Positions 6,372 to 33,715 of a stretch of DNA of 64,000 nt are shown here, piece by piece. The DNA lies in contig OZ023273.1 in assembly GCA_964007475.1 (NCBI GenBank), positions 68,466,445 through 68,530,444 of the forward strand. Reading direction: 5' to 3'. The translations under genes were made by a program, and so were the position numbers. Positions within the stretch are counted from its first letter, which is position 1; each line of letters starts with the position of its first letter. This DNA comes from Hybos culiciformis (Eukaryota > Arthropoda > Insecta > Diptera > Hybotidae). Under the pieces are notes generated by a model that saw nothing but the letters and a program-made list of their open reading frames with translations, was not told where the DNA came from and did not search any database.

Positions 6372-6377
6372 ATCCTA

Positions 6378-9881: not shown

Positions 9882-10061
9882 ATTATTATACTTTTTGATT
9901 TTTGTTTATTTTTTTTTAGAATCTACTGCTGGACTCCAGTTAATTTAATTTGTTATTCAATTTATTCAGTTCAGGATTGGTGGCTGTAGTTAGTTTTCAT
10001 TTGTTCTTCATACAGTTAGAATGTAACCAATCTCATTCTTGAATACATATTTGAATTTATT

Positions 10062-10384: not shown

Positions 10385-11795
10385 ACTAATTTTGGTTGAT
10401 CTTGGGTCGACTTTTAAATACAACAAAAAATTCAGTTTTTGTTATAGGGATATATCATGGCCATAAAAAACCACAAGACTTTTCCGAATTTTTAAATCCG
10501 TTTATTACTGAAATGAAACAAATTCAAAATGAACTAGAAATTAATAAAACTAAGTACTCCATTAATATCCGAGCCATAATATGTGATGCACCAGCAAGAG
10601 CATGTATGTGTGGTACAAAACATTATAACGCGTATATAAGTTGTCCTAAATGTACTATTAGAGTTACAATGACCAGAAAGCTTCTTTGCGAACGGATAGT
10701 AGTTTTTTGTTTAGAGAAGACGCGGAATTTCATGTATTTGATTCTCCCATAGAACAATTAAATGTTGGAATGGTTTCTCAAATTGCATTGGATTATTTAC
10801 ATATAGTCCTTTTGGGAGTTATAAAAAAACTCCTTAAAATTTGGTTTGGTAAAAAACCATTGTTTGTAAACCAAGTCAAAAATTTAGTTTCTTTTAAAAT
10901 GCTTTATTTAAACCAATTCAAACCTAACAACTTTCAAAGACAAATTCGGTCGTTAGACCACTTTGCGGTGTACAAAGGAACAGAGCTTAGGACCTTTTTA
11001 TTGTATTATGGTCCATTCGTTCTTAAATACTTACCCAGTCATTTGAACAAATACTATGATCATTTCTTAATTTTACATGTTGCTATAAAAATACTTTACA
11101 ATCCAGAAATGTGTTTCAAATACAATTCGCTTTCTGCAGATTTATTGAAGGACTTTGTTAAGCAATATGCAATTTTGTACGGTTCACATAGTGTGAATCA
11201 TAACGTTCATATGCTAATTCATCTGCCTAAAGAGGTATTGAATTTTAAAGCGTCATTGGATTCTTTTTCAGCTTTTTGTTTTGAACCCCTTTAAAAAGTT
11301 ATTAGCAGGTCATAAAAGCCCTTTAGTCGAATTTTCAAACAGATTGCATGAGATTAACAACTCTTTATCTGTCAGTGAAACAAATGATAAAACTTATTCA
11401 AATATCAAATTATATAGTAAAATTAAGGACACAGAAAATGCTTTTTCAAAATGTGTTTTCATGGTTATAAATTAAACAATGACGATAAAAATAAATATGT
11501 CTTAACTAAGGATTATCGAATATTTGAGATTCTATATTTTATTAAAGAAAATGAAGTATTATATTTGATATGCAAACAATATTTTGAACAAACTGATTTT
11601 TATACATATCCTCTTCAATCTTCAAAAATTAATATATATCAAACAACGAACTTATCATCTAATATGCAAAAATTGAAGATTTCAGAATTTTACTGTAAGC
11701 TTTTTGCCATGTCTGATAGTGATGTGTCTTCAACTAAAACATTTTTTCCGCTAACAATGTTTAATAATTCGGAAAACTGCACTGACAGTTTTTAA
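10377..11795 (+). pseudogene. CACTA/EnSpm-like transposase, copy 2 (5' truncated)
   Basis: This keeps the part from VIGIYHGHKKPQDF to the C terminus, with the same three frameshifts as copy 1. The 856-bp deletion at 10060/10061 removed the N-terminal exon region and the left half of the hAT insertion. One substitution was seen (11148, G for A). It cannot encode an active enzyme. Confidence 0.7.
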
Positions 11796-11801
11796 ATCCT
11801 A

Positions 11802-12165
11802 AAGAGGTATCGGTACAAGTTTGGATTTTTTGTCCCAAAATTTTTTTGAAAATCCGTTTTAGATTAGTTTAAAGTTTGATTTAGAAAAAACATTTCATTC
11901 ACAACCTCCGGACTGTTTTATACTTTAAAATGGTATGAAACTTTTTACAATCGGTTAAGGCTAAGTGCTCGAATCTCTTCAAAACTATTTTTTTGTGTCA
12001 CAAAATGGTTTTGAAGATATTTCAAGCACTTAGTCTTAACCGATTCTAAAAAGTTTTATACCATTTTAAAGTATTTTTAAAGTAAATTAAACTTTAAAAT
12101 AAATCTAAAACGAATTTTCAATCAAATTTTGGGACGAAAAATCCAAACTGGTACCAAGTCCTCTT
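11802..12165. repeat. Foldback element, copy 3
   Basis: Third copy of the inverted repeat. The right arm differs near 12034 (tagtctt for tagcctt), which breaks one base pair of the otherwise matching arms. Confidence 0.85.
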
Positions 12166-12311
12166 AATATTTATTTTCTTTTTTTTATTACTCTATTTTA
12201 AATTTCATGTTTTTAAAACATTTTTGCAAATTTTTTATCGATTTAATTTTTTTAATTACTGATATTGATTTATTTAAACATAAAAGTAATTATTTTACAT
12301 AACAATATTTT

Positions 12312-12826
12312 ATGGATAGCAGTATGAAGAAACATGCCCCTCTGAAACGTAAAAATAATTATGCTGTTGTAGAATTTCCTGCTGAAAGTGGCAAAGAGAA
12401 AGTTGTTGAGGTAGTAAGAATTGACTGGCTTATGGAAGACTGCAAAACAGTTTTGTGTCCAGAACTAAAGAATTGGAATATAGAGCTTAAATCTATTGGT
12501 GATCCCGCCCCAGATTGGAAAAAATATAATTGTCGTATTTTGAAAACAGGGTTTGGTGAGTTACAGAGTTTGTTATTTTATTCCTTTTTAATTGAATTAG
12601 CTTTCTTTTAACATAGATACTCTGAAAACAGCAAATTTAGAATGCCAAAAAAGAATGAACAGTCTAACTTCAACGTATTCAGATTCTTCAGAAAATGATG
12701 AAAATAAGTTAAATTATTGCACAGGAACCACAAATTATGATGCAGAATTCAATTATTTGTCAAAATACGACGATTTTGATATTCAAATTATAAATAATAA
12801 TGATAATCTGGATTTAATAGATGAAG
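12312..12826 (+). pseudogene. DUF4806-domain protein gene, copy 3 (5' part, cut by gap)
   Basis: Exon 1 (12312-12555) and the first part of exon 2 are present before the run of Ns at 12827. Compared with copies 1 and 2 it has S-to-A and T-to-K changes in the first module and lacks one codon in exon 2 (K-Y-D-D for K-T-I-D-D). It is the most diverged copy, so it is probably the oldest split or lies at the edge of the array. Confidence 0.7.
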
Positions 12827-15120: not shown

Positions 15121-15695
15121 ACTATGTTGATTTTATTCTATGCTGAATTCTCATTTGCACATTATACAATGTGCAATTTGATCACGGTATACAAAAAAAA
15201 TTGTATACTGTGTTGATTTTTTTCTGGGTAGAGTTTTTTTGTGAACAGTAGCACAGTAGTCAATTTCGAATGGATTTGCATGTTCTTGACTACAAATCGA
15301 TTGGCGCCCTATTCGTTAGGCGCCTGTTACGGTGAAATGATCTAATAAAAATTTGGTATTATGCATACCCAAAATATAGAACATTATTTAACTAGTTATA
15401 TAAAAAAAAAAAAATAATATAACTGCATTTTTTTTAACTCAAAAATTTTTTTTATTTGGAATAGGTCAAGAATACGTAAAAAGCATGATTTACAGAATAA
15501 TACATCTGATGTAATATTTTGTAAATTTTGCATAATTACCTTTTTTTTTGTTTTTATATGAAATTGTTTTGATTAAAAATCATATAAAAGAATTGAATTT
15601 TTTTACAACAATTTCATATTATGTTTTACCTCAAAACAAAAAAAAAGGTAAATATAAATGTTCTTTTTTTTTCCCTTTTTATCTTTAGGTGCTAG

Positions 15696-16107
15696 AACTT
15701 GCCATCTTAAGTTTTGCGGGATTAATCCCTCTAGCTTGAGATGACAAGTTCAGCGGTGTTTTACTGGAAAGTGAGCCAAACAATGCCACTTCCAGTGTAA
15801 ACCCAAAAGCCCGATCTTGGTGGAGGATTCTTGGGTCTATCCAAGAATCCAAAGCCAAGGCATGCCAATCACACCACATGGAAACTCCACTAGGAGGATC
15901 CATACTACGTTGTGGTGATACATCTGACTTCGCTGCCATCTCCAGGAATTCATTATCACTGAGAGATCATGATTTTGGATTCATGGAGGTGATAGTGAAG
16001 ACAGATGTAGTATAGAGGAACATTTCTGGTCGTTCCTGATCTCAACCAAATCGAGCGGTACCCGGTTGAGATCGGATCGAAGCATAATGACCAGAAATGT
16101 CACCTCT
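15696..16107 (+). other. Island of six consecutive hairpins inside the LTR
   Basis: Six stems lie side by side in a visibly GC-richer segment. H1: 15696-15711 with 15735-15750, with the palindrome GGGATTAATCCC in its loop. H2: 15758-15773 with 15787-15802. H3: 15825-15834 with 15841-15850, perfect 10 bp (GGATTCTTGG). H4: 15868-15878 with 15911-15919. H5: 15949-15959 with 15989-15999. H6: 16020-16031 with 16089-16100, perfect 12 bp, enclosing a perfect 10-bp stem 16038-16047 with 16064-16073, and extended outward by AGAGG/CCTCT. The 84-codon minus-strand frame here (15685-15939) is more likely a by-product. Repeated at 28837-29248. Confidence 0.8.
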
Positions 16108-16317
16108 GATTGGCTCCTCCAACTAACTTTCATTTTTTTACTAAAATCAAAGAATCAACCTAACAAGCCATACAAAATAGGAACTACAAAAAAATATAAC
16201 GTTCGGCATCGAAAAATAATTTTTTCTATATTTAATCATATATGTGAAACCCTTTTAAATTTCACGCAAAGAATTTCTTTAATTCAATTTTTTTTTTAAT
16301 TCATTTTAATAAAAAGT

Positions 16318-16494
16318 GAATATACTGCAAATTTCACTGATTATAATTGCAGCGATAAACAACGTAAAAATAATTTTAATTTTAGTAAATTTGATGAAAT
16401 ATCTGTGGATATACCAAAGGATGATGCCTTTTTTGCTTTTTACTATCGTGCCAATAGAGAAGATAATAAATTAACAGTGAATAAAATAATATAA
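16318..16494 (+). pseudogene. Coding-like fragment in the LTR, unidentified
   Basis: The plus-strand frame reads YTANFTDYNCSDKQRK and then DEISVDIPKDDAFFAFYYRA before a TAA at 16492-16494. Its composition looks like real protein rather than the lysine/phenylalanine-rich noise around it. I do not recognise it. In the 3' LTR (29459-29635) the same frame is linked to an upstream ATG at 29207 by a homopolymer difference, which I regard as chance. Confidence 0.35.
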
Positions 16495-16824
16495 ATTTTA
16501 TTCCTAACTAAGAATCTGTTATCTTATTTGTTATTTTAGAATTCAATACTCCCTATTTCATTATTGAAAATTTTCACATGTTCTAAAATAGTACTAAAAG
16601 AATATGTAATATCTGAAATTAATATTATAATTCATTATTAAACTATGAAAATTCACAAAGTTCTCATTTTCGTTGAGAGCAAAAAACTCTATTCTCAACT
16701 GAACAATTTTATTTTGTATCAATGAACAACCTGTCAGTAGAACCAAAGTATTAAGTACCTAATTTATTAAATTAAAACTACATATTATTTAAATATAAAT
16801 TTATTTTATTTTAACCAAATTTTT

Positions 16825-17001
16825 TTAGTATAAATAATCAGTTGCTTCTTTATTTAAATGATCATATTTGGATGATTGTTTTGTCCGAGGATCGTAAAAT
16901 CGTTCACCTCCCAAATCATTGCATTCGGTAATCAAACTTAAATTATCAATGCCTTCAACTTTAACCGGCTGCAATTGATCTTTATTGTACTGAGCAAATG
17001 C
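16825..17001 (-). pseudogene. Captured host terminal exon in the LTR, unidentified gene
   Basis: On the minus strand a CTAG acceptor is followed by 58 codons and TAA (16825-16827). The codons include [36 protein letters not shown] and [11 protein letters not shown]. There are no stops, the composition is ordinary protein, and the frame starts exactly at the acceptor, so it looks like the last exon of a cellular gene carried by the LTR. I cannot name the family. Copy at 29966-30142. Confidence 0.5.
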
Positions 17002-17459
17002 CTAGCTAGCTCCTTCTTTTTGTCATTTTTTTTAGCAATTTTCTAATACCTAAAAATATATAAAATAAACATTTTAAAAAAATAAAAACAAAATGTTTTC
17101 AAATTTTCAAAAAAATTTTCAAAAAAAAAAATATATATACATATATGTATATACGATATAAACTAATCATATGTTGTTTTGATAATTTATTTCTTTAGTG
17201 GTTACTAAAACTATCATAGTGTTCACATTTAAATCCTCACTTTAATTTTTTTATCAGTATAATTAATATTGGATATGAAATCAGTTTCTATTGATAAAAT
17301 AGCTGATGCGTTTAAGCGATGTTCTTTTATAGTATATTATAATACATTTTCAAACTTCTTAACAACGAAAAACTTCATTCCGCAGAAAAGTAATTAAAAA
17401 TGAACACAAAAATATTCTTAAAATTATATTTATGTTTGGAAATAACGTTTCCATACATA

Positions 17460-17847
17460 TCTGTGGCCACAGGACATAACCACTTAAGTCGAATTAGGCA
17501 GTTATGATTTTATAATTCCAAACTGTTGGTCATATGATACTACGTATACTTACAAATTTTTACGTTCCTAGCTTTACAATTAAACTTTTTGCAACCTAAA
17601 ACATAATAGCCTAAGTTTTTTTTAATCTCTTATGATTTTGGAATAACAGCTTAACTCTGATAATTTTTCAAAAAACAAATTTTTATCTTAACGTAATAAG
17701 TCTTTATTCCAATCATTCCCTTTTAATACTTAAACTTTTTCCTAACTTAACAATAGCCAATTTGAAACTTTAAAGATTTGAAACTTTAAACTGCTCTCCT
17801 GAAAAGTAGCAAAATCAAGTTAAGCGATTATGACTTGTGGCCACTGA
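17460..17847. repeat. Foldback MITE within the LTR
   Basis: The ends read TCTGTGGCCACAGGACATAA and, inverted, TCAGTGGCCACAAGTCATAA, with TA outside both. This is the pattern of a Tc1/mariner-derived MITE. The interior is AT-rich. Its presence in both LTRs (copy at 30601-30988) means it was acquired before this copy transposed. Confidence 0.75.
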
Positions 17848-19401
17848 TATACTTTAATAATTTTAGCTAATATTTTTATTCATTTCCATTGAAATTTTTG
17901 TTTTTTTGATTAAACTTTTACATAAAAGATATTTTAAATGAAAAGTTTTTGTTTTCACTGTTTCATTTTTAAAAAAAAAAAAATTCAAATTATTTTGAAA
18001 ATTCTGAAACATAAAACATCAGCGCCAAATTACGTAAAAAAAAAAAAAAAAAATTATCAAAAAAAAAAATTTCTCGAATAACTTTTCTCGCTTCCAAAAT
18101 CTTTTACAACCACTTGGCAAGCCTAAATTGGGTGCCAGTTTTGACGATCGGTGGTATCCCGACAGGTTTTCTTTTGTTGCTTTAGATACAAATACAATAA
18201 ACAACACATTTTTTTAGTTTCAAATCTTGATATATTGGTTTAGACTAGGCTAACCAGATAAAAATTTCTAAAAAAAAAAAAAAAAAAAAACAACGTACCC
18301 AAAAATTCCTTTTAGTGCAAAAACAAAAAAGGAAACAAAATATAAGGTACAAACAAAATATAAGGTACATGGTACAAAATTCAATTCCATTTTACAAAAA
18401 TTTTGATTAAATATAGCACCATTGCAAAATTTTCATTGAAATACGACAGAAATTTTTTTTATCTTCAAATTTCTATTTTCTTACTTACCTTTATTTTATT
18501 AATTATTATTTGATTAAATTAATAAAATGGAAAAATTTCATAAAAAAGGAATTTCCATTTAAGCCACGTAAATAAATCATTATATTTTTTTATGACATTC
18601 TAAAATGTCAGAAAAAAAAAAAAAATTAACGTAAACAAAAATAAGCCGCAAACTTCCAGCCGCAAACCGGCAGCCACAAACTTTAAGCCGCGAAATGTCA
18701 AAAATAGACTACGAACTAGACCGTTTTAAAATAACTTAATTTTTTTAGACTTTAAAAACTTAATAAAAATTAAAATTTTATAAATTTTTTTATAAAAATA
18801 TAATAAAATGAAAAATAATTTATAGTAATGGAATAAATTTTCAAAACTAGAAATTTTATTCATAAAATAAATTAAGTTTTCTCTCAAGTAAAATTACTAT
18901 TCACACCATGATTTTTTAACCAGATTTAATTTTGTTACTTTCTATTTATATAATTTGTTAAAAATGTTTGTTTAAATAAATAAAATTTAATCAAAAATAA
19001 TTCTATAAAGGAATTAATTAAAATCAAAACTCAATAAAAATCTACATTTTAATTTTATGTTTTTAGGTACATGCCCAACCACAATAGTTTTACGTAATCA
19101 GAACATTCATTTAATCTAAATAAACAATACTGGTTTTACCAGGTAAACCTGATCTATCTCATATTTAACTCAACTTTAAAACAAGTAAATTTTTTTTTGA
19201 TTTAACTCACTTTTAATTCAACAACTATTAATAAACAGTTGCAAAACCTTTCAACCATATCAAAATAGCCAATGGAAAAATTCCATAACGGCGCACCAAA
19301 CTTACTAACTAACTAATTTTAAGATAGTTTTTAAAAAGAAATGGCTTGTTAGGTAGATTTTAACTATAAGTTTATTTTAATAACTAACTTTAAATTTTTT
19401 T

Positions 19402-19571
19402 TTTCATATTATGTTTTACCACAAAACAAAAAAAAAAAAGGGCAACATAATGCAATAACCCGCCTCAGTTTCATATTATGTTTTACCTCAAAACAAAAAA
19501 AAAGGGCAACATAATGCAATAACGCGCCTCAATTTCATATTATGTTTTACCTCAAAACAAAAAAAAAAGGA
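19402..19571 (+). repeat. Three copies of a 64-bp LTR repeat
   Basis: Each unit starts TTTCATATTATGTTTTACC, then CAAAACA and a run of A's, then GGCAACATAATGCAATAAC. Copies begin near 19404, 19468 and 19532. A further partial unit lies at 15613-15650, with an imperfect inverted counterpart near 15538-15575. Downstream (19572-19735) a segment ends in a TAAATAAATAAA run, like the tail of a SINE or LINE. Confidence 0.7.
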
Positions 19572-20577
19572 ACCCATACAGAAAATACTGTGAAGGTACC
19601 AACCTAATGTTTCCACCTACACGGAAGAGCAACATTAGATGACAACAGATCACGAATCTGCATAAAGAAATTCAAGACCTCCTAAAAGTAGGCATCAAAA
19701 AAAAAATAAATAAATAAATAAATAAATTAAAGCAATTGTTTATATATATATCATCATTATGATATAAGAAAAACAAAAGAAACAAAAAAAAAAAAAGAAA
19801 CAAAAGAACAAAAATTTGTATTCTTTATAAACGGTTATCAAAGAAAAATATAACCAAAGTTATATGTAAATAACTTTTAAAAAAACAAAAATTTTTTATG
19901 TACAACAAAAAAAAAAAATAAATGAAAATTTTCCAGTTTTCAAAAATTTTTATAATATATATGTATGAAATCATATTGTTCTCCAATCAACAATATTTAA
20001 TGTAATTTTTTTAAATTAAGTTTATAATAATTTTTTAATTTTTTTATTTTACGTTTGTTAAATAAAGTATCTAAAAGAATAACTATGTGTTATTGCTAAA
20101 AGAATCCCACAGGTCCTTATAGGTACCATAAGAAATGCTGATGTAAGGTCCAGCTCTAGATGGCCATAGCCATAAGCTGAAGAATGACTTCTTAGTCATT
20201 TAGATTTAAGTTTTTATTTTATATTTTGAATTGGTTGGGGTTTCTCAAATATCCTTTTTTTTGAGATCTCCTTTTTATCATCTTTTAAACGAAAGACATC
20301 CTATTAATATTGTTATGGACCCCCTTGGTGTTCACTGTCCTTACCCACCCACCGACGAGCTTAGACCCAGCCTTAGAACACGGATGTCCTTAGACAGTAG
20401 ACTCAACACCAGGCTAATTATTGAAAGTAGAGCACTTTCTCTTGCCTCTACTTTCACATGTTTCCCTTTTTATCATAACTTCCTTTATGATAAAATCCTT
20501 TTTGTTTGAGTTCATTTGAACTCAGATTGTTCGTAGTTTAACTAACTACTAAAATTTATAATTTTTAACATAACAAA

Positions 20578-20592
20578 TGGCGCCCAACGTGG
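20578..20592 (+). promoter_or_regulatory. Primer-binding site of the giant gypsy element
   Basis: TGGCGCCCAACGTGG starts two bases after the LTR end. It would pair with a tRNA ending in GGCGCCA. I do not assign the tRNA. Confidence 0.85.
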
Positions 20593-20675
20593 TAAGAGCA
20601 TGAGTCCTACCTGCCCAACGTGGGAAGAGCATGAGTCCTACCTACCCAACGTGGTAAGACTATGAGTCCTACCCT
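20583..20675 (+). repeat. 31-bp tandem repeat extending from the primer-binding site
   Basis: CCCAACGTGGTAAGAGCATG and the bases that follow repeat three times with a 31-bp period (20583, 20614, 20645). Only the first copy has the full TGGCGCC needed to pair with the tRNA 3' end. Confidence 0.85.
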
Positions 20676-20893
20676 TCTCAAAGAGGCGGAAGATTTACGA
20701 GTCTCTGCCCTTTGAATAAGTAAAAGGCAAATCGCCTAGTACAAGATTTTTTTTTTGAAATTATAATGTTTTAAAAAAAAAAAAAAAATATATATAAAGA
20801 AACAATTTTTTTTTATATATACACAATTAAAGACGTTAAAATACATATTTAAGAAACCCCAATTCAAATAGCTCTATTAAATAATTTCTTCAT

Positions 20894-21367
20894 AATATTG
20901 GAAGAAACTTTTCACCTTGCAGTGCGAGTTCAGTATAAAATGTGGGCACAGTTCACACTGAACGTGCTGGGGTAAAATTTTTCCGAACAATATTACAATT
21001 CTAATTCTATACAACTATACTTTATTTCCAATTCTAACACTAAACAAACAGTTATCCTGTTACCTATTCTTGCAGTGTGAGTTCAGTATAAAATGTGGGC
21101 ACAGTCCACACTGTACATGCTGGGAATAGATAACAGGAGATACTATAAAAATCTTTTTCTTCAATAACAAAAAAAAAAAAATCAACATCGTACAGTGCGA
21201 GTTCAGTATAAAATGTGGGCACGGTCCACACTGAACGTGCTGCGATTTGATTTTCAGTACTTGTAAACAAGTACAGTGTTTCTTTTCGACGAGTTACCTT
21301 GCAGTGTGAGTTCAGTATAAAATGTGGGCACAGTCCACACTGTACATGCTGGGGTAACCAGTCGAAA
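20894..21367 (+). ncRNA. Four-module structured RNA in the gypsy leader
   Basis: Four 50-nt cores lie at 20920-20969, 21073-21122, 21193-21242 and 21302-21351. Each starts CAGTG(C/T)GAGTTCAGT, has TATAAAATGTGGGCAC in the middle and ends in AC(G/A)TGCTG. Within the core, CAG pairs with CTG, and GTTCAG with CTGAAC in modules 1 and 3. Where the 5' side has C the 3' side has G (1 and 3); where it has T the partner is A (2 and 4). Outside the core the flanks differ between modules but stay complementary. Module 2: CCTGTTACCTATTC with GAATAGATAACAGG. Module 3: AAAATCAACATCG with CGATTTGATTTT. Module 4: TTTCGAC and GTTACC with GGTAAC and GTCGAAA. Module 1: AATATTG with CAATATT plus an inner A/T helix. 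A small perfect hairpin (GTACTTG loop TAAA) lies at 21257-21274. Function is unknown; packaging, dimerisation or translation control are candidates. Confidence 0.8.
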
Positions 21368-21719
21368 TTAAATCAAAAAAAACCACTTTTTAAATTTCAA
21401 TCTATACTTTTTTAAATAGAGCTAACTATAAATTCTCCTTTTTCCTATAAAAATTTTTTTTTACTCTACTAAACAACTACATTAAGCATTTCTTATACCT
21501 AAAAAGGACCTAAATTAATGAAAAATATTAAGAAAAATTATATACAAAATATTATTAGAAAAAAAAAAGAAATAATAAAGAAAATAAAAAAAAAAAAAAA
21601 AAAAATAGATAATTATATTCATACATATAATAAAATAATTATAGAAATATATATATAAACAAAGAAAAGAAAATATCTGAATAAAAAAAAAAAAAAAAAA
21701 AAAACAAAAGAAATCTAAA

Positions 21720-23945
21720 ATGGAAACTCAAAATTTATATATAAATCCTGAATTATTAGGAATAGAAGAGTTAGAATATGAATATTTGAGAAATCAGATT
21801 TCCTATTCAGATCCCGAAGCGATGAACATATTAAAAGAACACCTTTTGAGGGAAACAGACAAGCCTCAAACTCGAATAAGACTAGCCACAAGTGGTATCA
21901 GGGGCGCGAAAGACCCACTGCAATTCCTTGAGAGAGGATCAGTAATAAGGGATGCTAAAGAAGTAGCCAGATTAACCCAAGAATCAATAGAAAACCCTAG
22001 TTTAGAAAAATTTGTAACTTTACATAGTAGACTAACGCATCATAAGTTCAAATTGCTTGATTTCTTGGAAATAGATTTAGATGCAGATAACCATATAAAA
22101 AACCTGATAGACGTGATAAAAACCTGCTTAAAAGAAGTAAAAGAACAAATAAGTAAACTATCATTAAAGGAAGCTGAAGCTGATAATATAGGAAATGGAA
22201 AATCTTCAGAAAAACAAACAGTGCCAACTTATACCTTTTTAGAAAAAGGGGGAGATTTGAACCAATCAAAAGGAGCAATAAACAAAGATAGACCAAAAAA
22301 AATAACTGAGACTCCAAGCAAATCACAACGGAAAATATATTACTCAGAAATAGGCACGGACTCAGCAACTCAAGATGAAGGTGGGGCATTTGGACCAATA
22401 ATATATGCAAAAACAGGATATAATGGCGATGAGTGGACAAAAACAGGTTATAATGGCGAAAATTGGACAAAATGGAGAGAGACCAGACCTGGACCAAAAT
22501 TTATGCCACAAATACAAATAAATAGAAAATTAGATTTCCCACAAATACCAAGACAAGAGTTAATAGCAGAACTATCAAATAAAGTTGGAAACATAAATTT
22601 TCAAGAAAAAAATAGAGAACAAATACAAGATAAAAAGAAAGAAATCAAAAGCGGTACAGAAAAGAAAAGCATAGAAGAAAAAGATCATAAAATATCAAAA
22701 CTAATGGAACTTATAAAAAGCCTTAGCGAGGAAATGAAGCCAATAATTATGGATTTTAAGGCAAAACAAGAGACCCCGATAACACGAAATAATAGATCCA
22801 GTAGCCCTGACTCAAGATCATCTACGCCGGTAATGCACCAATATAAACAAAATGCAAGACCCCCCTCAATTCATTCTAATAATTCACAAAATTATCAAGA
22901 AGTAAATCAACGAAGAGTAATATCCAGTACAGGAGAAAGAGATTACAGGTCACCTCAAAGGAGAGAAACAAGACCTGGGAATAACAGAGCAAGAAATAAC
23001 GAAGAACCAAGACAACAACTAGAATCCAGATACTCAAAAGAGCTAGACCTAAAGAAAAGGTTTGGATTATTTTTCAATGGAGACGAAGTAGAAAACTTCG
23101 TAAAAGACGTCAATAATCAAAGGATAGATCACAACATCTCAGATCGTGTCCTAATTAACCATTTGCACCAACTGCTTGACCCAACTGTAAAAAAATGGTA
23201 CTTTTTATACTTTAGAACCCACGACAAACAAGAAACATCCTGGAGAACATTTAGCTCAGCCCTCATTAATGAATATGCAGAGGCATTAGACGAAGATATA
23301 AAAATTACCGAGCTAATTAATAGAAAACAAAAAATAGGCGAAACTTGGCGCGAATTCATACAAGCTATGAACGCATTAAACCAAAAGCTAGACGAACCAT
23401 TAAATGAACGTCGATTAGCAAATAGAATTAAGCTTAACGTAAGAAGAGAGTATAAAGAACCTCTTCAAGCAGTTGAAGTTGAAAATCTAACAGCTCTAAG
23501 GAACAAGTTCAGATTGATTGACGCCGGTAAAGACCAAAAAACTTTCTACCGAGCAAATCAGGACGAACAAGGATATGCCAGGGCAAGCAACGACCGAAAT
23601 AAGTACAAGGTACAGGAAATACAGTACGAAGACGATTACCCGTACGAAGATAGTTATAATGATTACTACGAAGTAGAATCAATACAAAATGTACCAAAAC
23701 ATCAACAAAATAACTTGAGCAACAACAAGAAAAAATTTGATGAACAACCAAAACCAAAACAGCAATCCCGACCAGAAACCCCAGAAAATAAGTTGAGATG
23801 CTGGAACTGTGAAGGACCTGGACACGCTTTTATGGATTGTCCAGCAAACTATCGGCGGATATTTTGCTACAGGTGCGGAATGATAAACGAAGTAGCACCA
23901 ACATGCCGAAACTGCCACAAAACAGTTCGCTTTCAGGGAAACTGA
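21720..23945 (+). CDS. gag: Gag polyprotein of the giant gypsy element
   Basis: 741 codons, starting at ATG after a run of A's. The N-terminal third is charged, with a short internal duplication (TGYNGDEWTK, TGYNGENWTK). A Ser/Pro/Arg-rich linker follows. The capsid-like Retrotrans_gag region lies at about residues 440-605 (RFGLFFNGDEVENFV, WRTFSSALINEYAEA). Near the C terminus is one good zinc knuckle, C-x2-C-x4-H-x4-C, at residues 694-707, and then a second Cys-rich segment (CYRCGMINEVAPTCRNC) that lacks the histidine. It is expected to form the RNA-packaging particle. The stop TGA (23943-23945) directly follows the slippery heptamer. Open throughout. Confidence 0.93.
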   Translation: METQNLYINPELLGIEELEYEYLRNQISYSDPEAMNILKEHLLRETDKPQTRIRLATSGIRGAKDPLQFLERGSVIRDAKEVARLTQESIENPSLEKFVTLHSRLTHHKFKLLDFLEIDLDADNHIKNLIDVIKTCLKEVKEQISKLSLKEAEADNIGNGKSSEKQTVPTYTFLEKGGDLNQSKGAINKDRPKKITETPSKSQRKIYYSEIGTDSATQDEGGAFGPIIYAKTGYNGDEWTKTGYNGENWTKWRETRPGPKFMPQIQINRKLDFPQIPRQELIAELSNKVGNINFQEKNREQIQDKKKEIKSGTEKKSIEEKDHKISKLMELIKSLSEEMKPIIMDFKAKQETPITRNNRSSSPDSRSSTPVMHQYKQNARPPSIHSNNSQNYQEVNQRRVISSTGERDYRSPQRRETRPGNNRARNNEEPRQQLESRYSKELDLKKRFGLFFNGDEVENFVKDVNNQRIDHNISDRVLINHLHQLLDPTVKKWYFLYFRTHDKQETSWRTFSSALINEYAEALDEDIKITELINRKQKIGETWREFIQAMNALNQKLDEPLNERRLANRIKLNVRREYKEPLQAVEVENLTALRNKFRLIDAGKDQKTFYRANQDEQGYARASNDRNKYKVQEIQYEDDYPYEDSYNDYYEVESIQNVPKHQQNNLSNNKKKFDEQPKPKQQSRPETPENKLRCWNCEGPGHAFMDCPANYRRIFCYRCGMINEVAPTCRNCHKTVRFQGN

Positions 23946-26900
23946 TTTCCCAATCTGTAGAAAGGCCGTCTACAGATTTTAACTTAGGCCAAAACTTGAT
24001 TCAAACCAGAAAAAACGAATTAATTAAAAATGAAAATGAAATAATTGAAAAAGAAAAACAAAATGAAAAAATTGAAAAAGAAAAACCTGAAAAACAACAT
24101 GAGATAATAGAAAAAGAAAATAAAGAAAAAGAAAATACAGATAATAAAAATATGGAAAAACAAAAAGAAATAAAAAAAAAAGAAATTACAGAAAAAGAAA
24201 ATATTGAAAAAGAGAAACTTGAAAGACAAGAAATTATTGAAAACGAAAAACAAGAAATAAATGAAAATAAAAACATGAAAGTAATAGGAATTCTAAAGAG
24301 AACAAAAACCGAAGAAAGGATAACAAAGGAAAGAAAACAATGGCCTCCTTATCATATAAGAAAACAACGTTACGATAAGAAAAGGGCTGAAATAGTTACT
24401 TTCAATAATAGTGAAATAAGACTAAATACAAAAAGAGAAATGAAATCGAAGAAAAAAACAAAGAAATCAGCAAGGAAAAACAAATATTATATAAAAGCAA
24501 AAGATGACAAGAAAAGGATTCTTTCAGCAGTAATAAAAATGCCTCAAGATAATAGACCATATGCAAGAATCCAAATAGGAAAGGAAATCTTAACAGGACT
24601 ATTGGATTCCGGTGCTTCTATCTCATGTTTAGGAAAAGATTCAAAATGGTTAAAAGAAAATACAAATTACAAATTACATAAAATAAGAGATACCCTATTA
24701 ACTGCAGCCGGTAATAAAACCGAAATAATAGGCTATATTTTAGCACAAATAACTTTTAATAATGTCACAAAAACTTTAAAAATCCATGTGGTACCAAAGT
24801 TATCACAAGAATTATATCTTGGTGTTAACTTCTGGACCGAATTTAATTTAGCACCTCAAATTTTTAAACAAATAGAAGAAATACAAGAAATAGACACAAA
24901 TATTCACTATTTAGATTTAAACGACCAATTAGAGTTAGAAGCGATAAAAAGGATGTTTCCGTCCTACGCGGTCGAAGGGTTAGGGTGCACAGATTTGGAA
25001 GAACATGTGATTGACACCCAGGAAAACGAACCGGTCAAACAAAAACATTACCCAATTTCGCCAGCAATACAAAAACTTATGTACGCTGAAGTAGATAGAA
25101 TGTTAGAAATGGGGGTAATAGAGGAAAGTAATAGTGCGTGGACGTCACCTGTAGTGCTAGTAAGGAAACCTGGTAAAAACCGCCTATGTCTAGATTCGCG
25201 AAAAGTGAATGATTTGACGAAAAAGGACGCATATCCTTTACCAAATATTCAAGGCCTATTAGCACGAATAGACAAAACTAAATACATAAGTAGTATCGAT
25301 TTAAAAGACGCTTTTTGGCAGATTCCGTTAGAAAAACAGTCTCGTGAAAAAACTACTTTTGCAATCCCAGGTAGACCCCTCTATCAATACACGCGTATGC
25401 CTTTCGGACTTTGTAACGCAGCCCAACGCATGTGTCGGCTCATGGATAAAGTGATTCCTCAGCATTTAAAGGAGGAGGTAAAGGTTTACTTAGACGATTT
25501 AATGGTGGCAACAGATACAAAAGAACGCCATTTTCAACTTCTAAAGGAAGTAGCAATCGCTCTAAGGAAAGCCAACCTCACAATAAATGTTGAGAAATCG
25601 AAATTTTTCATGAAAGAGATTAAATATCTAGGATATTTAATCGGCGCGAACGGTACAAAACCCGACCCAGGAAAAATATCCGCGATATCGGAATATCCTG
25701 AACCAAAGTCCTTAAAACAAACTAGACGGTTCCTTGGTATGACAGGATGGTTCCAAAGACTAATTAAGGACTATTCCTTAATAGTAGCCCCAATAACAGA
25801 CTGTTTAAAATTAAAAAATAGTGAAAATAAATTCAAATTTACAAAAGAAGCTAGAGAGGCCTTTAGTAAAATTAAAGAAATCCTAGTTTCCGAGCCTATA
25901 CTGATCCCCCCCGACTATTCTAAAGAATTCTTCATACAAACTGACGCCAGCCAATCAGGCATAGGGGCAGTCGTATTTCAATATGACGAAGAAAACAACG
26001 AACACCCTGTAGCCTACATGTCAAAAAAATTCAATGATACACAATCTAGGTGGGCAGCTACAGAACAGGAATGTTTTGCAGTTGTCGAAGCCATAAAAAA
26101 GTTTAGAATGTACGTAGAAGGTACTAAATTTACCGTAATAACAGATTGTGCAGCATTGAAATGGTTAATGACATGCAAGGATCATCACGGAAAACTTTTC
26201 CGGTGGTCATTGAAGCTACAGGCGTTCGAATTTGACATTCTACATCGAGCAGGAAAGAAAAATGTAGTAGCAGACACCCTGTCAAGATCCTTCGGAATAG
26301 AAGAAATAACAACAAGATGTCCCGATTTAGATCTAGACTCAGAAGCTTTTGAGTCTATCAACTATAAAGAATTACGAGAAACAATCGAGGACAACAAAAA
26401 TAGCTTACCGGATTTACAAATAATTGAAAACAAAATTTTCAAAAGAACAGAATTCAGAAAAAATCAAGAAGAATCTGAGCTGAGTTTATGGAGACTATGG
26501 GTCCCGGAAGAACTAGTGGGCAAAGTAATAGAAAACAATCATGATCCCCCACACTCAGCTCATGGAGGGCTAAGAAAAACGCTGTTCAAAATAAGGACAA
26601 AATATTATTGGCCACGAATGTATTCCGATATAAAAAAATACATACAAAATTGTGCAGTTTGTAAAGAAACGAAACCAACAAATCAGATACTAAGACCACC
26701 TATGGGAGAAAAACAAATCCCGTCAAGACCTTTTCAACACCTATATATAGACTTCTTAGGCCCCTACCCAAGATCAAGATCTGGCAACACGTGCATATTC
26801 ATAATACTAGACTCCTTCTCAAAATATGTAATAATAAAACCATTACGAAAAGCAACTACAGCTAACGCAATTAAAGTGTTAGACGAAGCTTTTAGTCTGT

Positions 26901-27568
26901 TCGGATGTCCGGAAAGTGTCTTAAGTGACAATGGAACCCCACTCGTCTCAAAAGAGTTCGATTCTTACCTACAAAACTACGGTATAGAGCACAAATTAAC
27001 CGCCTTCTATGCACCACAAGCTAACGCTAGTGAAAGGGTAAACGGATCAATTTTAAACGCAATAAGAGCCTACGTAGACGACGAACAACACAACTGGGAC
27101 GGAGATCTAGATAGCATAAGCACAGCTCTTCGCTCCAGTGTGCACGAAGCCACGGGTATGTCACCTTATTACATTTTATTCGGACAACACATGATAACGC
27201 ATGGTAGCTCTTTTAAACTACTAAGAAAACTAAATATGATAGAAGGAGAGGATACAGAAATATTACCCCCTCCAGGATCCTTCCAAATCATAAAAGATAT
27301 AGTTAAACGAAACTTAGAAAAGGCAAAAGAGAAAGGGAGAAAGTTGTACAACCGGAAATGTAAAAACATAAAGTACAAAGTAGGACAGACATTGTATAGA
27401 AGGAATTTCGCTCAAAGTGATTTTAGTAAACATTTCAACGCGAAATTAGGAAAGAAATTCGTGCCGTGTTTAGTTTTAAGGATAATAGGAAATAGTATAT
27501 ATGAAGTCAAAGACCTAGTAGGTAGAAATGCTATAGGGAGATATCATGCGAAAGACTTAAAAATTTAA
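23837..27568 (+). CDS. pol: Pol polyprotein of the giant gypsy element
   Basis: The open frame begins at 23837, but translation should enter by -1 frameshift at 23936. Residue numbers are from 23837. About 40-160 is a Lys/Glu-rich repetitive, coiled-coil-like stretch, unusual for a gypsy pol. The aspartic protease has LLDSGAS (Asp257). The reverse transcriptase has YLDD (551-554), a variant of YxDD. RNase H has TDASQSG (Asp703). Integrase has an HHCC zinc domain at about 902-943 (H-x3-H ... C-x2-C) and catalytic Asp972, Asp1031 and Glu1066. The C terminus carries a short basic tail. No stop or frameshift is present, so the enzyme set looks intact. No envelope follows. Confidence 0.95.
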   Translation: MSSKLSADILLQVRNDKRSSTNMPKLPQNSSLSGKLISQSVERPSTDFNLGQNLIQTRKNELIKNENEIIEKEKQNEKIEKEKPEKQHEIIEKENKEKENTDNKNMEKQKEIKKKEITEKENIEKEKLERQEIIENEKQEINENKNMKVIGILKRTKTEERITKERKQWPPYHIRKQRYDKKRAEIVTFNNSEIRLNTKREMKSKKKTKKSARKNKYYIKAKDDKKRILSAVIKMPQDNRPYARIQIGKEILTGLLDSGASISCLGKDSKWLKENTNYKLHKIRDTLLTAAGNKTEIIGYILAQITFNNVTKTLKIHVVPKLSQELYLGVNFWTEFNLAPQIFKQIEEIQEIDTNIHYLDLNDQLELEAIKRMFPSYAVEGLGCTDLEEHVIDTQENEPVKQKHYPISPAIQKLMYAEVDRMLEMGVIEESNSAWTSPVVLVRKPGKNRLCLDSRKVNDLTKKDAYPLPNIQGLLARIDKTKYISSIDLKDAFWQIPLEKQSREKTTFAIPGRPLYQYTRMPFGLCNAAQRMCRLMDKVIPQHLKEEVKVYLDDLMVATDTKERHFQLLKEVAIALRKANLTINVEKSKFFMKEIKYLGYLIGANGTKPDPGKISAISEYPEPKSLKQTRRFLGMTGWFQRLIKDYSLIVAPITDCLKLKNSENKFKFTKEAREAFSKIKEILVSEPILIPPDYSKEFFIQTDASQSGIGAVVFQYDEENNEHPVAYMSKKFNDTQSRWAATEQECFAVVEAIKKFRMYVEGTKFTVITDCAALKWLMTCKDHHGKLFRWSLKLQAFEFDILHRAGKKNVVADTLSRSFGIEEITTRCPDLDLDSEAFESINYKELRETIEDNKNSLPDLQIIENKIFKRTEFRKNQEESELSLWRLWVPEELVGKVIENNHDPPHSAHGGLRKTLFKIRTKYYWPRMYSDIKKYIQNCAVCKETKPTNQILRPPMGEKQIPSRPFQHLYIDFLGPYPRSRSGNTCIFIILDSFSKYVIIKPLRKATTANAIKVLDEAFSLFGCPESVLSDNGTPLVSKEFDSYLQNYGIEHKLTAFYAPQANASERVNGSILNAIRAYVDDEQHNWDGDLDSISTALRSSVHEATGMSPYYILFGQHMITHGSSFKLLRKLNMIEGEDTEILPPPGSFQIIKDIVKRNLEKAKEKGRKLYNRKCKNIKYKVGQTLYRRNFAQSDFSKHFNAKLGKKFVPCLVLRIIGNSIYEVKDLVGRNAIGRYHAKDLKI
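23936..23990 (+). promoter_or_regulatory. Programmed -1 frameshift signal between gag and pol
   Basis: The slippery heptamer G GGA AAC (23936-23942) is in the gag frame and abuts the gag TGA. Pol is in the -1 frame. Nine bases downstream is a perfect 10-bp stem, AATCTGTAGA (23952-23961) with TCTACAGATT (23969-23978). Its loop contains GGCC (23964-23967), which can pair with GGCC at 23987-23990 as an H-type pseudoknot. GGGAAAC is a known retroviral frameshift heptamer. Confidence 0.85.
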
Positions 27569-27945
27569 GGATCTTAGGAAATCTGATAAAAATTAAAAAA
27601 AAAATAAATAAAAAAATAAAATAAAATTTTCGGTACAACATTTAAGATTTCTTCAATGATAAATTTTTCTTTTGAAAAAAAAAAATGAATAATAAATCCT
27701 TATTCTAATAATTTTATTTTTTTCTAGAAAACCAAAATATGATAACGTATATGTATGAATAGAAAATTGATTAAAATTGATCTTCAACAAAATTGAGAAA
27801 CATTTGTTTCTAGAAAATTATAAATAGATATAGACAAATAGATAAAAAAAAAAAAAATAACAAAAATTTGTATAGAATAAGAGAATTTCATTTTTACAAT
27901 AAAAAAAAAAAAAAAAACAAAAAAAAAAATAAATAATAATAAAAA

Positions 27946-27995
<50 letters not shown>

Positions 27996-28465
27996 AAGAA
28001 AATATATTTATAAATAGTATAAGAATTTACCTGAAAAAAAAAAAAAAAAAATAAATAAATAAATAAAAAAAAAAAAAAAAAATAAAATTATAAAAAAAAA
28101 TATTTTTGATACATTTCATTCAAAAAAAAAAAAAAAATTGTAAAAAAAAAAAAAACAAAAAAAAAAAATATATATATACATAATATATATATGAATTATA
28201 GTTTTAAGAATATGAAAATTGTAAAAATTAAAAAAAAAAAATAATAATAATAATAATAATAGTACACATTACATCCTTACATATACATTATCACACAAAA
28301 ACAAAATTTGTTCTTTTTTTTTATAACAAGTAAAATAATTTTCCCGGCTAACTCACATGAGACTCTTTATCTCAGGGTCAGCTTCGAGCCCCACTTTCTT
28401 TTTCTTCATTCACCCGTTTTCTAGCTTCAATCCACCATTTTCAATGCGTGAGATTGAATCTATTT
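27569..28465 (+). other. A-rich untranslated stretch before the 3' LTR
   Basis: Poly-A runs and short AT, ATA and TAAA simple repeats with no reading frame. The last 60 bases read GCTTCAATCCACC to GAATCTATTT and contain no clear polypurine tract next to the LTR start, although one is expected there for plus-strand priming. Confidence 0.7.
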
Positions 28466-31400
28466 TGTTACGGTGAAATGATCTAATAAAAATTTGGTAT
28501 TATGCATACCCAAAATATAGAACATTATTTAACTAGTTATATAAAAAAAAAAAAATAATATAACTGCATTTTTTTTAACTCAAAAATTTTTTTTATTTGG
28601 AATAGGTCAAGAATACGTAAAAAGCATGATTTACAGAATAATACATCTGATGTAATATTTTGTAAATTTTGCATAATTACCTTTTTTTTTGTTTTTATAT
28701 GAAATTGTTTTGATTAAAAATCATATAAAAGAATTGAATTTTTTTACAACAATTTCATATTATGTTTTACCTCAAAACAAAAAAAAAGGTAAATATAAAT
28801 GTTCTTTTTTTTTCCCTTTTTATCTTTAGGTGCTAGAACTTGCCATCTTAAGTTTTGCGGGATTAATCCCTCTAGCTTGAGATGACAAGTTCAGCGGTGT
28901 TTTACTGGAAAGTGAGCCAAACAATGCCACTTCCAGTGTAAACCCAAAAGCCCGATCTTGGTGGAGGATTCTTGGGTCTATCCAAGAATCCAAAGCCAAG
29001 GCATGCCAATCACACCACATGGAAACTCCACTAGGAGGATCCATACTACGTTGTGGTGATACATCTGACTTCGCTGCCATCTCCAGGAATTCATTATCAC
29101 TGAGAGATCATGATTTTGGATTCATGGAGGTGATAGTGAAGACAGATGTAGTATAGAGGAACATTTCTGGTCGTTCCTGATCTCAACCAAATCGAGCGGT
29201 ACCCGGTTGAGATCGGATCGAAGCATAATGACCAGAAATGTCACCTCTGATTGGCTCCTCCAACTAACTTTCATTTTTTTACTAAAATCAAAGAATCAAC
29301 CTAACAAGCCATACAAAATAGGAACTACAAAAAAATATAACGTTCGGCATCGAAAAATAATTTTTTCTATATTTAATCATATATGTGAAACCCTTTTAAA
29401 TTTCACGCAAAGAATTTCTTTAATTCAATTTTTTTTTAAATTCATTTTAATAAAAAGTGAATATACTGCAAATTTCACTGATTATAATTGCAGCGATAAA
29501 CAACGTAAAAATAATTTTAATTTTAGTAAATTTGATGAAATATCTGTGGATATACCAAAGGATGATGCCTTTTTTGCTTTTTACTATCGTGCCAATAGAG
29601 AAGATAATAAATTAACAGTGAATAAAATAATATAAATTTTATTCCTAACTAAGAATCTGTTATCTTATTTGTTATTTTAGAATTCAATACTCCCTATTTC
29701 ATTATTGAAAATTTTCACATGTTCTAAAATAGTACTAAAAGAATATGTAATATCTGAAATTAATATTATAATTCATTATTAAACTATGAAAATTCACAAA
29801 GTTCTCATTTTCGTTGAGAGCAAAAAACTCTATTCTCAACTGAACAATTTTATTTTGTATCAATGAACAACCTGTCAGTAGAACCAAAGTATTAAGTACC
29901 TAATTTATTAAATTAAAACTACATATTATTTAAATATAAATTTATTTTATTTTAACCAAATTTTTTTAGTATAAATAATCAGTTGCTTCTTTATTTAAAT
30001 GATCATATTTGGATGATTGTTTTGTCCGAGGATCGTAAAATCGTTCACCTCCCAAATCATTGCATTCGGTAATCAAACTTAAATTATCAATGCCTTCAAC
30101 TTTAACCGGCTGCAATTGATCTTTATTGTACTGAGCAAATGCCTAGCTAGCTCCTTCTTTTTGTCATTTTTTTTAGCAATTTTCTAATACCTAAAAATAT
30201 ATAAAATAAACATTTTAAAAAAATAAAAACAAAATGTTTTCAAATTTTCAAAAAAATTTTCAAAAAAAAAAATATATATACATATATGTATATACGATAT
30301 AAACTAATCATATGTTGTTTTGATAATTTATTTCTTTAGTGGTTACTAAAACTATCATAGTGTTCACATTTAAATCCTCACTTTAATTTTTTTATCAGTA
30401 TAATTAATATTGGATATGAAATCAGTTTCTATTGATAAAATAGCTGATGCGTTTAAGCGATGTTCTTTTATAGTATATTATAATACATTTTCAAACTTCT
30501 TAACAACGAAAAACTTCATTCCGCAGAAAAGTAATTAAAAATGAACACAAAAATATTCTTAAAATTATATTTATGTTTGGAAATAACGTTTCCATACATA
30601 TCTGTGGCCACAGGACATAACCACTTAAGTCGAATTAGGCAGTTATGATTTTATAATTCCAAACTGTTGGTCATATGATACTACGTATACTTACAAATTT
30701 TTACGTTCCTAGCTTTACAATTAAACTTTTTGCAACCTAAAACATAATAGCCTAAGTTTTTTTTAATCTCTTATGATTTTGGAATAACAGCTTAACTCTG
30801 ATAATTTTTCAAAAAACAAATTTTTATCTTAACGTAATAAGTCTTTATTCCAATCATTCCCTTTTAATACTTAAACTTTTTCCTAACTTAACAATAGCCA
30901 ATTTGAAACTTTAAAGATTTGAAACTTTAAACTGCTCTCCTGAAAAGTAGCAAAATCAAGTTAAGCGATTATGACTTGTGGCCACTGATATACTTTAATA
31001 ATTTTAGCTAATATTTTTATTCATTTCCATTGAAATTTTTGTTTTTTTGATTAAACTTTTACATAAAAGATATTTTAAATGAAAAGTTTTTGTTTTCACT
31101 GTTTCATTTTTAAAAAAAAAAAAATTCAAATTATTTTGAAAATTCTGAAACATAAAACATCAGCGCCAAATTACGTAAAAAAAAAAAAAAAAAATTATCA
31201 AAAAAAAAAATTTCTCGAATAACTTTTCTCGCTTCCAAAATCTTTTACAACCACTTGGCAAGCCTAAATTGGGTGCCAGTTTTGACGATCGGTGGTATCC
31301 CGACAGGTTTTCTTTTGTTGCTTTAGATACAAATACAATAAACAACACATTTTTTTAGTTTCAAATCTTGATATATTGGTTTAGACTAGGCTAACCAGAT

Positions 31401-33715
31401 AAAAATTTCTAAAAAAAAAAAAAAAAAAAAACAACGTACCCAAAAATTCCTTTTAGTGCAAAAACAAAAAAGGAAACAAAATATAAGGTACAAACAAAAT
31501 ATAAGGTACATGGTACAAAATTCAATTCCATTTTACAAAAATTTTGATTAAATATAGCACCATTGCAAAATTTTCATTGAAATACGACAGAAATTTTTTT
31601 TATCTTCAAATTTCTATTTTCTTACTTACCTTTATTTTATTAATTATTATTTGATTAAATTAATAAAATGGAAAAATTTCATAAAAAAGGAATTTCCATT
31701 TAAGCCACGTAAATAAATCATTATATTTTTTTATGACATTCTAAAATGTCAGAAAAAAAAAAAAAATTAACGTAAACAAAAATAAGCCGCAAACTTCCAG
31801 CCGCAAACCGGCAGCCACAAACTTTAAGCCGCGAAATGTCAAAAATAGACTACGAACTAGACCGTTTTAAAATAACTTAATTTTTTTAGACTTTAAAAAC
31901 TTAATAAAAATTAAAATTTTATAAATTTTTTTATAAAAATATAATAAAATGAAAAATAATTTATAGTAATGGAATAAATTTTCAAAACTAGAAATTTTAT
32001 TCATAAAATAAATTAAGTTTTCTCTCAAGTAAAATTACTATTCACACCATGATTTTTTAACCAGATTTAATTTTGTTACTTTCTATTTATATAATTTGTT
32101 AAAAATGTTTGTTTAAATAAATAAAATTTAATCAAAAATAATTCTATAAAGGAATTAATTAAAATCAAAACTCAATAAAAATCTACATTTTAATTTTATG
32201 TTTTTAGGTACATGCCCAACCACAATAGTTTTACGTAATCAGAACATTCATTTAATCTAAATAAACAATACTGGTTTTACCAGGTAAACCTGATCTATCT
32301 CATATTTAACTCAACTTTAAAACAAGTAAATTTTTTTTTGATTTAACTCACTTTTAATTCAACAACTATTAATAAACAGTTGCAAAACCTTTCAACCATA
32401 TCAAAATAGCCAATGGAAAAATTCCATAACGGCGCACCAAACTTACTAACTAACTAATTTTAAGATAGTTTTTAAAAAGAAATGGCTTGTTAGGTAGATT
32501 TTAACTATAAGTTTATTTTAATAACTAACTTTAAATTTTTTTTTTCATATTATGTTTTACCACAAAACAAAAAAAAAAAAAGGCAACATAATGCAATAAC
32601 CCGCCTCAGTTTCATATTATGTTTTACCTCAAAACAAAAAAAAAGGGCAACATAATGCAATAACGCGCCTCAATTTCATATTATGTTTTACCTCAAAACA
32701 AAAAAAAAAGGAACCCATACAGAAAATACTGTGAAGGTACCAACCTAATGTTTCCACCTACACGGAAGAGCAACATTAGATGACAACAGATCACGAATCT
32801 GCATAAAGAAATTCAAGACCTCCTAAAAGTAGGCATCAAAAAAAAAATAAATAAATAAATAAATAAATTAAAGCAATTGTTTATATATATATCATCATTA
32901 TGATATAAGAAAAACAAAAGAAAAAAAAAAAAAAAAGAAACAAAAGAACAAAAATTTGTATTCTTTATAAACGGTTATCAAAGAAAAATATAACCAAAGT
33001 TATATGTAAATAACTTTTAAAAAAACAAAAATTTTTTATGTACAACAAAAAAAAAAAATAAATGAAAATTTTCCAGTTTTCAAAAATTTTTATAATATAT
33101 ATGTATGAAATCATATTGTTCTCCAATCAACAATATTTAATGTAATTTTTTTAAATTAAGTTTATAATAATTTTTTAATTTTTTTATTTTACGTTTGTTA
33201 AATAAAGTATCTAAAAGAATAACTATGTGTTATTGCTAAAAGAATCCCACAGGTCCTTATAGGTACCATAAGAAATGCTGATGTAAGGTCCAGCTCTAGA
33301 TGGCCATAGCCATAAGCTGAAGAATGACTTCTTAGTCATTTAGATTTAAGTTTTTATTTTATATTTTGAATTGGTTGGGGTTTCTCAAATATCCTTTTTT
33401 TTGAGATCTCCTTTTTATCATCTTTTAAACGAAAGACATCCTATTAATATTGTTATGGACCCCCTTGGTGTTCACTGTCCTTACCCACCCACCGACGAGC
33501 TTAGACCCAGCCTTAGAACACGGATGTCCTTAGACAGTAGACTCAACACCAGGCTAATTATTGAAAGTAGAGCACTTTCTCTTGCCTCTACTTTCACATG
33601 TTTCCCTTTTTATCATAACTTCCTTTATGATAAAATCCTTTTTGTTTGAGTTCATTTGAACTCAGATTGTTCGTAGTTTAACTAACTACTAAAATTTATA
33701 ATTTTTAACATAACA
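28466..33715 (+). repeat. 3' LTR of the giant gypsy element (5250 bp)
   Basis: Matches the 5' LTR at offset 13141, falling to 13140 after a one-base indel in the A-rich stretch near 32580. A one-base shift in position of a T/A run near 29437 opens a 142-codon frame that is closed in the 5' LTR. It carries the same hairpin island (28837-29248), exon-like pieces and MITE (30601-30988). Confidence 0.95.

Follow-up and report, generated by a model that had tools for sequence, protein, structure and literature searches.

We found that the leader of a giant Ty3/gypsy element in the fly Hybos culiciformis carries four 67-nt hairpin modules between its primer-binding site (PBS) and gag, at positions 20911-21359 of the window, by which we mean the whole 64,000-nt stretch of DNA that was analysed. 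Covariation over related copies, with all module sequences coming from this one genome, supports a selected RNA fold for the module, the signal being weak in a strict all-pairs test. We tentatively read the modules as a multivalent signal that acts in cis in the genomic RNA, most likely for recognition and packaging by Gag.

The host element and the fold of its modules

The element that hosts the modules was assigned to Ty3/gypsy by its pol domains (Pfam) and occupies window 15325-33715 (18.4 kb), flanked by a 4-bp target duplication, CGCC. All of its features described here lie on the forward strand. Self-BLAST identified the 5' LTR (15325-20575, 5251 bp) and the 3' LTR (28466-33715), which are 99.94% identical, begin with TG and end with CA, and contain no ORF of at least 150 aa; at 5.25 kb they are very long for a Ty3/gypsy element. 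The PBS, TGGCGCCCAACGTGG (20578-20592), is complementary to the 3' end of tRNA-Lys(CUU), and a tRNA 3' end matching it occurs at two places in the genome, at one of which ARAGORN calls tRNA-Lys(ctt). The gag ORF (21720-23945) encodes 741 aa with Ty3_capsid and Retrotrans_gag matches below the curated Pfam cut-offs and, by motif scan, one CCHC knuckle at residue 694. The pol ORF (23837-27568) encodes protease, reverse transcriptase, RNase H and integrase (Pfam), and no ORF of at least 60 aa was found between pol and the 3' LTR. A search with pol returned 784 matches, and among the 120 matches listed the identities reached 53% and the two that carried a name were flies; a search with Gag found none among 7995 scored candidates at E 0.001.

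Several other features of this region were recorded. The PBS or its 3' part stands in tandem in the window, where a repeat search found three 31-nt units at 20582-20674, each opening with a PBS-like [GA]CCCAACGTGG. Elsewhere, locus L019 has eight PBS-like copies (oriented locus 739-998), and L009 (908-1012) and L035 (880-1022) have units of 71-73 nt, each made of LTR-end-like sequence plus a PBS. Window 1-12826 holds a large, near-identical tandem duplication whose copies are offset by 6.3 and 5.4 kb and share 99.0-99.9% identity. A BEL/Pao element lies at 42909-47645 (DUF1759, Pao peptidase, DUF5641), and the covariance model found no module in it.

The modules begin about 330 nt and end about 780 nt downstream of the PBS. 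Module 1 lies at 20911-20977 (87.6 bits with the covariance model), module 2 at 21064-21130 (90.8 bits), module 3 at 21184-21250 (86.6 bits) and module 4 at 21293-21359 (90.1 bits). A preliminary description, made from the letters of the window, had claimed four near-identical cores in this leader, each enclosed by a self-complementary outer helix of different sequence. The cores are indeed there, starting at 20926, 21079, 21199 and 21308, and a pattern written from them had no match in 100 shuffles. All four outer helices are also present and paired in the predicted folds, namely AATATTG/CAATATT for module 1 (20893-20995 with its outer helix), CCTGTTA/TAACAGG for module 2 (21056-21137), AAAATCAA/TTGATTTT for module 3 (21178-21254) and TTTCGAC/GTCGAAA for module 4 (21284-21367). 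An exchange of C-G in modules 1 and 3 for T-A in modules 2 and 4 proved real (columns 15-54 of the 67-column alignment). The broader claim that pairing is retained in every module held for these helices and this exchange but failed at columns 20-51 of the same alignment, where modules 2 and 4 have a U.U mismatch and are thus incompletely compensated. These two modules each join the 5' half of one type to the 3' half of another, and the junction with its mismatch looks as if partial gene conversion had taken place between modules.

Folding, one of the checks proposed in that description, showed each sense-strand module to be better than its dinucleotide shuffles (z of -3.4, -4.7, -4.4 and -4.0 for modules 1-4). 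The reverse strand folded comparably (z of -5.2, -4.7, -2.4 and -3.1), so that single-sequence folding leaves the strand unfixed.

The consensus structure, derived from an alignment of 25 modules, has 26 base pairs. In order, the module consists of a 7-pair outer helix, a U-N bulge, 6 pairs, a GA bulge, 7 pairs, an A-rich bulge that includes AAAA and measures about 7 nt, 6 pairs and a non-palindromic apical loop of 3 nt. All three bulges are on the 5' strand, and the 3' strand is continuous save for one extra G in 32 of the 115 distinct modules. Several of the module's best-conserved letters are unpaired and lie in the bulges. RNAalifold independently recovered 25 of the 26 pairs, omitting only columns 3-64, a pair that is unpaired in 10 of 24 rows. 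Beyond column 1 the outer helix extends for a variable distance, with internal loops.

Likenesses to described RNAs were also considered. Rfam gave no match in the window, and the described families were rejected, since none reached its gathering threshold (the best sub-threshold score in 20200-21760 was 19.7 bits against a threshold of 38). An iron-responsive element was rejected because in 37 of 115 modules a C replaces the U of the CAGUG in the 5' arm. The idea that the primer tRNA pairs through its anticodon loop with the A-rich bulge was dropped, as the loop of tRNA-Lys(ctt) would match it poorly.

Evidence for selected pairing and for position-specific outer helices

We compared the 25-module alignment with column shuffles using five measures. 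Over the 26 pairs, 96.2% of the cells were paired as against 84.6% in the shuffles, doubly changed cells numbered 77 as against 26, and the covariation score was 0.323 as against 0.117; none of 500 shuffles reached the observed value on any of these three. The other two measures were unconvincing, with 15 of 500 shuffles reaching the observed number of pairs with a double change and 256 of 500 the number of further pair types. An alignment of 49 distinct rows, which was fitted to the model and is biased toward structure by construction, gave 96.3% paired cells as against 85.2%; of its two weak measures, the number of doubly changed pairs was reached by 104 of 500 shuffles and that of further pair types by 472 of 500.

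We also aligned 115 distinct modules by fixed anchors, excluding the 5 of 254 modules that had at least four mismatches to the anchor pattern. Standard pairs filled 2811 of the 2990 cells (94%) in the sense orientation, whereas the antisense would pair 2405, and G.U occurred in 454 cells as against 48 for A.C. Because G.U is commoner than A.C and sense pairs outnumber antisense pairs, the folded molecule is the sense RNA. Individual pairs of the 69-column alignment illustrate the exchanges: pair 35-45 is G-C in 60 modules and A-U in 54, pair 20-53 is G.U in 85 and U-A in 18, pair 15-56 is U-A in 91 and C-G in 15, and pair 37-43 is G.U in 88, A-U in 14 and U.G in 7.

An R-scape-like test of all column pairs returned 2 of 2145 at E<0.05, both of them structural. 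After this weak result we devised a branch test, in which the substitutions on the module tree were compared with 500 replicates that placed the same substitutions on random columns. Internal branches carried 13 double compensations against a null of 0.75 (maximum 5 in 500), an excess of about 17-fold, and 28 broken pairs against a null of 59 (minimum 47), or half of the null. Breaks on terminal branches numbered 78 against a null of 70. The compensatory changes affect both arms of the hairpin. Internal branches represent lineages that transposed further, while terminal branches are mostly insertions decaying in place, and such a contrast between them is expected if pairing is selected while elements transpose and decays neutrally afterwards. 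The selected RNA fold that had been suggested from four modules is thus supported by covariation over related copies and by the excess on these branches.

The outer helices differ from the cores in how they vary. In six leaders, modules at different positions within one leader had cores that were 92% identical and outer helices that were 44% identical, whereas modules at the same array position in different families had cores 88% and outer helices 82% identical. This same-position similarity between families indicates that the outer helices are position-specific and older than the families, while the cores are kept alike. The mean pairing energy of an outer flank was -16.3 kcal/mol with its own partner, -7.4 with partners from other module classes and -6.8 with shuffled partners. 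Partner swaps were at least as good as the own partner in 903 of 16048 comparisons, and in 32 of 136 cases no swap equalled the own partner. The preliminary description had named free variation of the outer flanks as a finding that would speak against a selected fold; the difference between -16.3 and -7.4 kcal/mol contradicts such variation.

No core pairs with a neighbour in the folded leader of the window. When pairing outside the cores was forbidden, cross-module pairs appeared, most of them between modules 1 and 3 (2.4 expected pairs, as against 15 within a module). The outer helix may act as a private clamp that keeps neighbouring cores, near-identical as they are, apart in the fold, the effect of forbidding the outer pairs being modest.

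Module arrays across the genome and in carriers without detectable gag or pol

In a search of the 342-Mb genome for the core, as had been proposed, a 30-position pattern allowing two mismatches matched 528 times and a somewhat looser one allowing three matched 575 times; neither reversed pattern had a match. We read 63 loci, made up of the window, 39 loci found by a DNA search (which scored 40 of 187 candidates and matched 40 places, the window itself among them, 46 times in all), 20 from the pattern list and three with a single match in that list. The pattern-chosen loci all lie on contig C1 among the matches listed, four multi-match clusters were left out, and the set is not a whole-genome sample.

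All 63 loci (the window, L009-L067 and L071-L073) have leader arrays of at least three modules. The pattern scan counted 254 modules in 60 loci, with 3-7 per leader and 4 in 44 leaders; the remaining three loci, L071-L073, were read with the covariance model. A recognisable PBS lies upstream of the array in 58 of the 63, and a gag match lies downstream of the leader in 47 of 59 loci, the other 12 having none in the stretch examined. The position between PBS and gag claimed for the window thus recurs in most leaders. Independent insertions of MITEs, the other objection raised in the preliminary description, are made unlikely by the presence of arrays at every locus read and of the PBS upstream in 58, and the outer helices correspond by position between families.

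Local matches of Gag to that of the window ranged from 33 to 100% protein identity over the 47 loci, with 33-45% in the most diverged families and 33% in L047. For six loci (L023, L024, L034, L046, L051 and L056) the cores were 85-95% identical to those of the window and the linkers 59-72%, while Gag was about 40-50% identical (local matches); in L013, which is near-identical to the window, cores were 98% and linkers 95% identical. By these comparisons the module appears clearly to outlast its surroundings, with the proviso that nucleotide and protein identity are not on one scale. L009 and the window have module regions that are identical over 501 bp, post-PBS sequences that differ and LTR ends that are 97% identical, which suggests recombination near the PBS.

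Searches beyond this genome gave no further examples. The core patterns had no match in viral_contigs or GTDB genomes, neither of which is a collection of animal genomes, and pol-based peptide patterns in viral_contigs and DNA in phages had none in collections that are likewise not animal and are little informative. A literature search found no description of such a hairpin array.

For three of the 12 loci that had no gag match, L026, L065 and L030, we examined 6 kb of downstream sequence (as L070, L068 and L069, respectively). Those 6 kb held no gag or pol match at E<0.01, and the longest frames were 106, 107 and 84 aa in sense and 152, 136 and 100 aa in antisense. A stretch of 1003 bp in L070 is 99.7% identical to the end of the L026 LTR, and one of 387 bp in L068, which runs to the limit of the examined sequence, is 95.9% identical to part of what is presumed to be the LTR of L065. 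The 6589 bp that separate L026 from L027 correspond to roughly one unit, suggesting that the two stand in tandem and have an LTR in common. L030, L031 and L032, which lie far from one another, are 98.3-98.6% identical copies; no 3' LTR was found for them, and L030 is thus only tentatively a gene-less carrier. With L020, L022, L028, L031, L032 and L059 left out of the count, at least two module carriers (L026/L027 and L065) are without detectable gag or pol and may have moved in trans. A tRNA-Lys-like stretch on the reverse strand of L069 (about 3510-3440), in non-coding sequence downstream of the L030 leader, is perhaps a SINE.

We also asked how well the fold is kept in these carriers, grouping L026 and L065 with L027, the unit adjoining L026, and with L058 and L066, relatives of L065 that were seen for 2.2-2.4 kb past the modules. 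The 21 distinct modules of these five loci keep a mean of 24.1 of the 26 pairs. Pair-breaking changes made up 2 of 12 on internal branches, some of which may predate gene loss, and 22 of 26 on terminal branches. In such carriers a device for translating gag would hardly be retained, whereas one required in cis for packaging, export or reverse transcription would be.

Candidate functions and comparison with known systems

We rank packaging by Gag first, as a possible rather than an established function, because of the position of the array, the number of repeats, its persistence without detectable gag and the knuckle of the nucleocapsid (NC). In the simplest reading, the conserved bulges on the helix would form a protein-binding surface that is offered 3-7 times per RNA, with each core set on its own position-specific outer helix as a putative private clamp between near-identical cores. 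The likeliest reader would be the element's own Gag through its zinc knuckle; binding would mark the full-length RNA for packaging, and elements without gag would use the signal in trans. Against Gag as the partner, the core is conserved and Gag strongly diverged, so that a host partner fits as well or better, and export, stability and reverse transcription are also functions in cis that would be equally kept without gag.

Such a host partner is the basis of the next candidate, a nuclear-export or RNA-stability element bound by a conserved host protein and akin to the constitutive transport elements (CTEs) of simple retroviruses, which we rank below packaging by Gag and consider rather unlikely. 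The modules show no mirror-related internal loops like those of the MPMV element, and with no ORF of at least 60 aa downstream of pol there is no apparent spliced product that would require special export. In its favour, it would account for cores with 85-95% nucleotide identity where Gag has 33-50% in many families and for retention in elements without detectable gag, and passages of a review call the export signal of Drosophila gypsy, like its packaging signal, unknown (PMC4276936). Control of gag translation by an IRES, a shunt or a Gag-operated switch seems improbable. The leader would suit it, with 1142 nt from the PBS to the gag ATG and 11 upstream ATGs, several of them within modules, and passages of two papers report two IRESs for gypsy (PMC4276936) and cap-independent translation for Idefix (PMC3735527). 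However, the array stands before a gag ORF in the window element but not in carriers without detectable gag, which have no gag or pol match and no sense frame longer than 107 aa in the 6 kb downstream, and the AUG within the module varies (among 115 modules, the final base of the bulge is T in 93, A in 21 and G in one).

A role in reverse transcription or RNA dimerisation near the primer site is very unlikely in our estimation: the modules lie within several hundred nucleotides of the PBS and each copy would require such a function in cis, but a 3-fold to 7-fold repeat is not obviously required for priming, and loop-loop dimerisation was rejected because the loop has 3 nt and is non-palindromic. 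Among the three roles that the preliminary description had listed for this region, dimerisation through the loop is accordingly improbable and gag translation is disfavoured by the gag-less carriers, while packaging is the one we retain. Hairpin precursors of small RNAs are a fainter prospect still; module and outer helix do make a long hairpin, but several unpaired bulge letters are highly conserved, compensation occurs in both arms and the large one-sided bulge breaks the stem. We give the least credence to a DNA-level element (an insulator or enhancer repeat) or to repeats that have no function. A DNA site requires neither compensating changes nor G.U, and repeats of no function should show as many broken pairs on internal branches as the null does. 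An insulator of the Su(Hw) type was rejected, since none of the 13 matches to its motif (18.4 matches expected by chance in the window) falls in the leader at 20578-21719. The precedent for a DNA-level role is that passages of a review place 12 Su(Hw)-binding repeats in the 5' UTR region of Drosophila gypsy (PMC4276936).

Returning to packaging by Gag, the kind of signal is known: the modules would be structured, cis-acting leader RNA of a retroelement, with retroviral psi proper as a candidate class only. Psi is structured RNA between PBS and gag that is recognised in cis, is bound by Gag/NC as a requirement for encapsidation and consists of a few unlike stem-loops. The modules share with it a leader RNA structure in that position that appears to be kept by selection (58 of 63 with a PBS upstream), and they differ in that one hairpin is repeated 3-7 times, each copy with its own outer helix, and in that binding by Gag is putative. 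The CTE of simple retroviruses is likewise a cis-acting RNA hairpin with conserved unpaired patches. Its place is close to the 3' end, it contains two internal loops that mirror each other, and it recruits NXF1 for the export of unspliced RNA; the modules are near the 5' end and, in place of any two-sided internal loop, have three bulges on one strand. A compact motif with hundreds of natural variants, intact and broken, in one genome makes the packaging question directly testable, with one candidate partner (the NC of Gag) and clear rivals. Setting like cores on outer helices that differ by position may also be a general answer to the problem of folding repeated hairpins.

Among insect elements, the Su(Hw) insulator of Drosophila gypsy is likewise a set of repeats in the 5' UTR region, as described in passages of the review cited above (PMC4276936); it acts as DNA, whereas in our leaders its motif is absent and base pairing is conserved. 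The translation control exerted by the 5' UTRs of Idefix and gypsy is also a case of regulatory leader RNA in insect gypsy elements, but the passages concerned (PMC3735527, PMC4276936) do not mention a hairpin array, and the arrays described here persist without detectable gag. For yeast Ty RNA, part of another review states that the sequences relevant to packaging are not precisely defined (PMC4974528). Comparable to the gene-less carriers is BARE2, described in a passage of PMC3735527 as an LTR element that makes no Gag, retains packaging signals and is packaged in trans; it is a plant element with another type of signal, and packaging in trans is putative for the carriers studied here. Set beside these systems, the modules could, more tentatively still, represent a packaging signal of an animal Ty3/gypsy lineage that is built from like hairpins on private, compensating clamps and exploited by gag-less parasites, a principle that is apparently undescribed.
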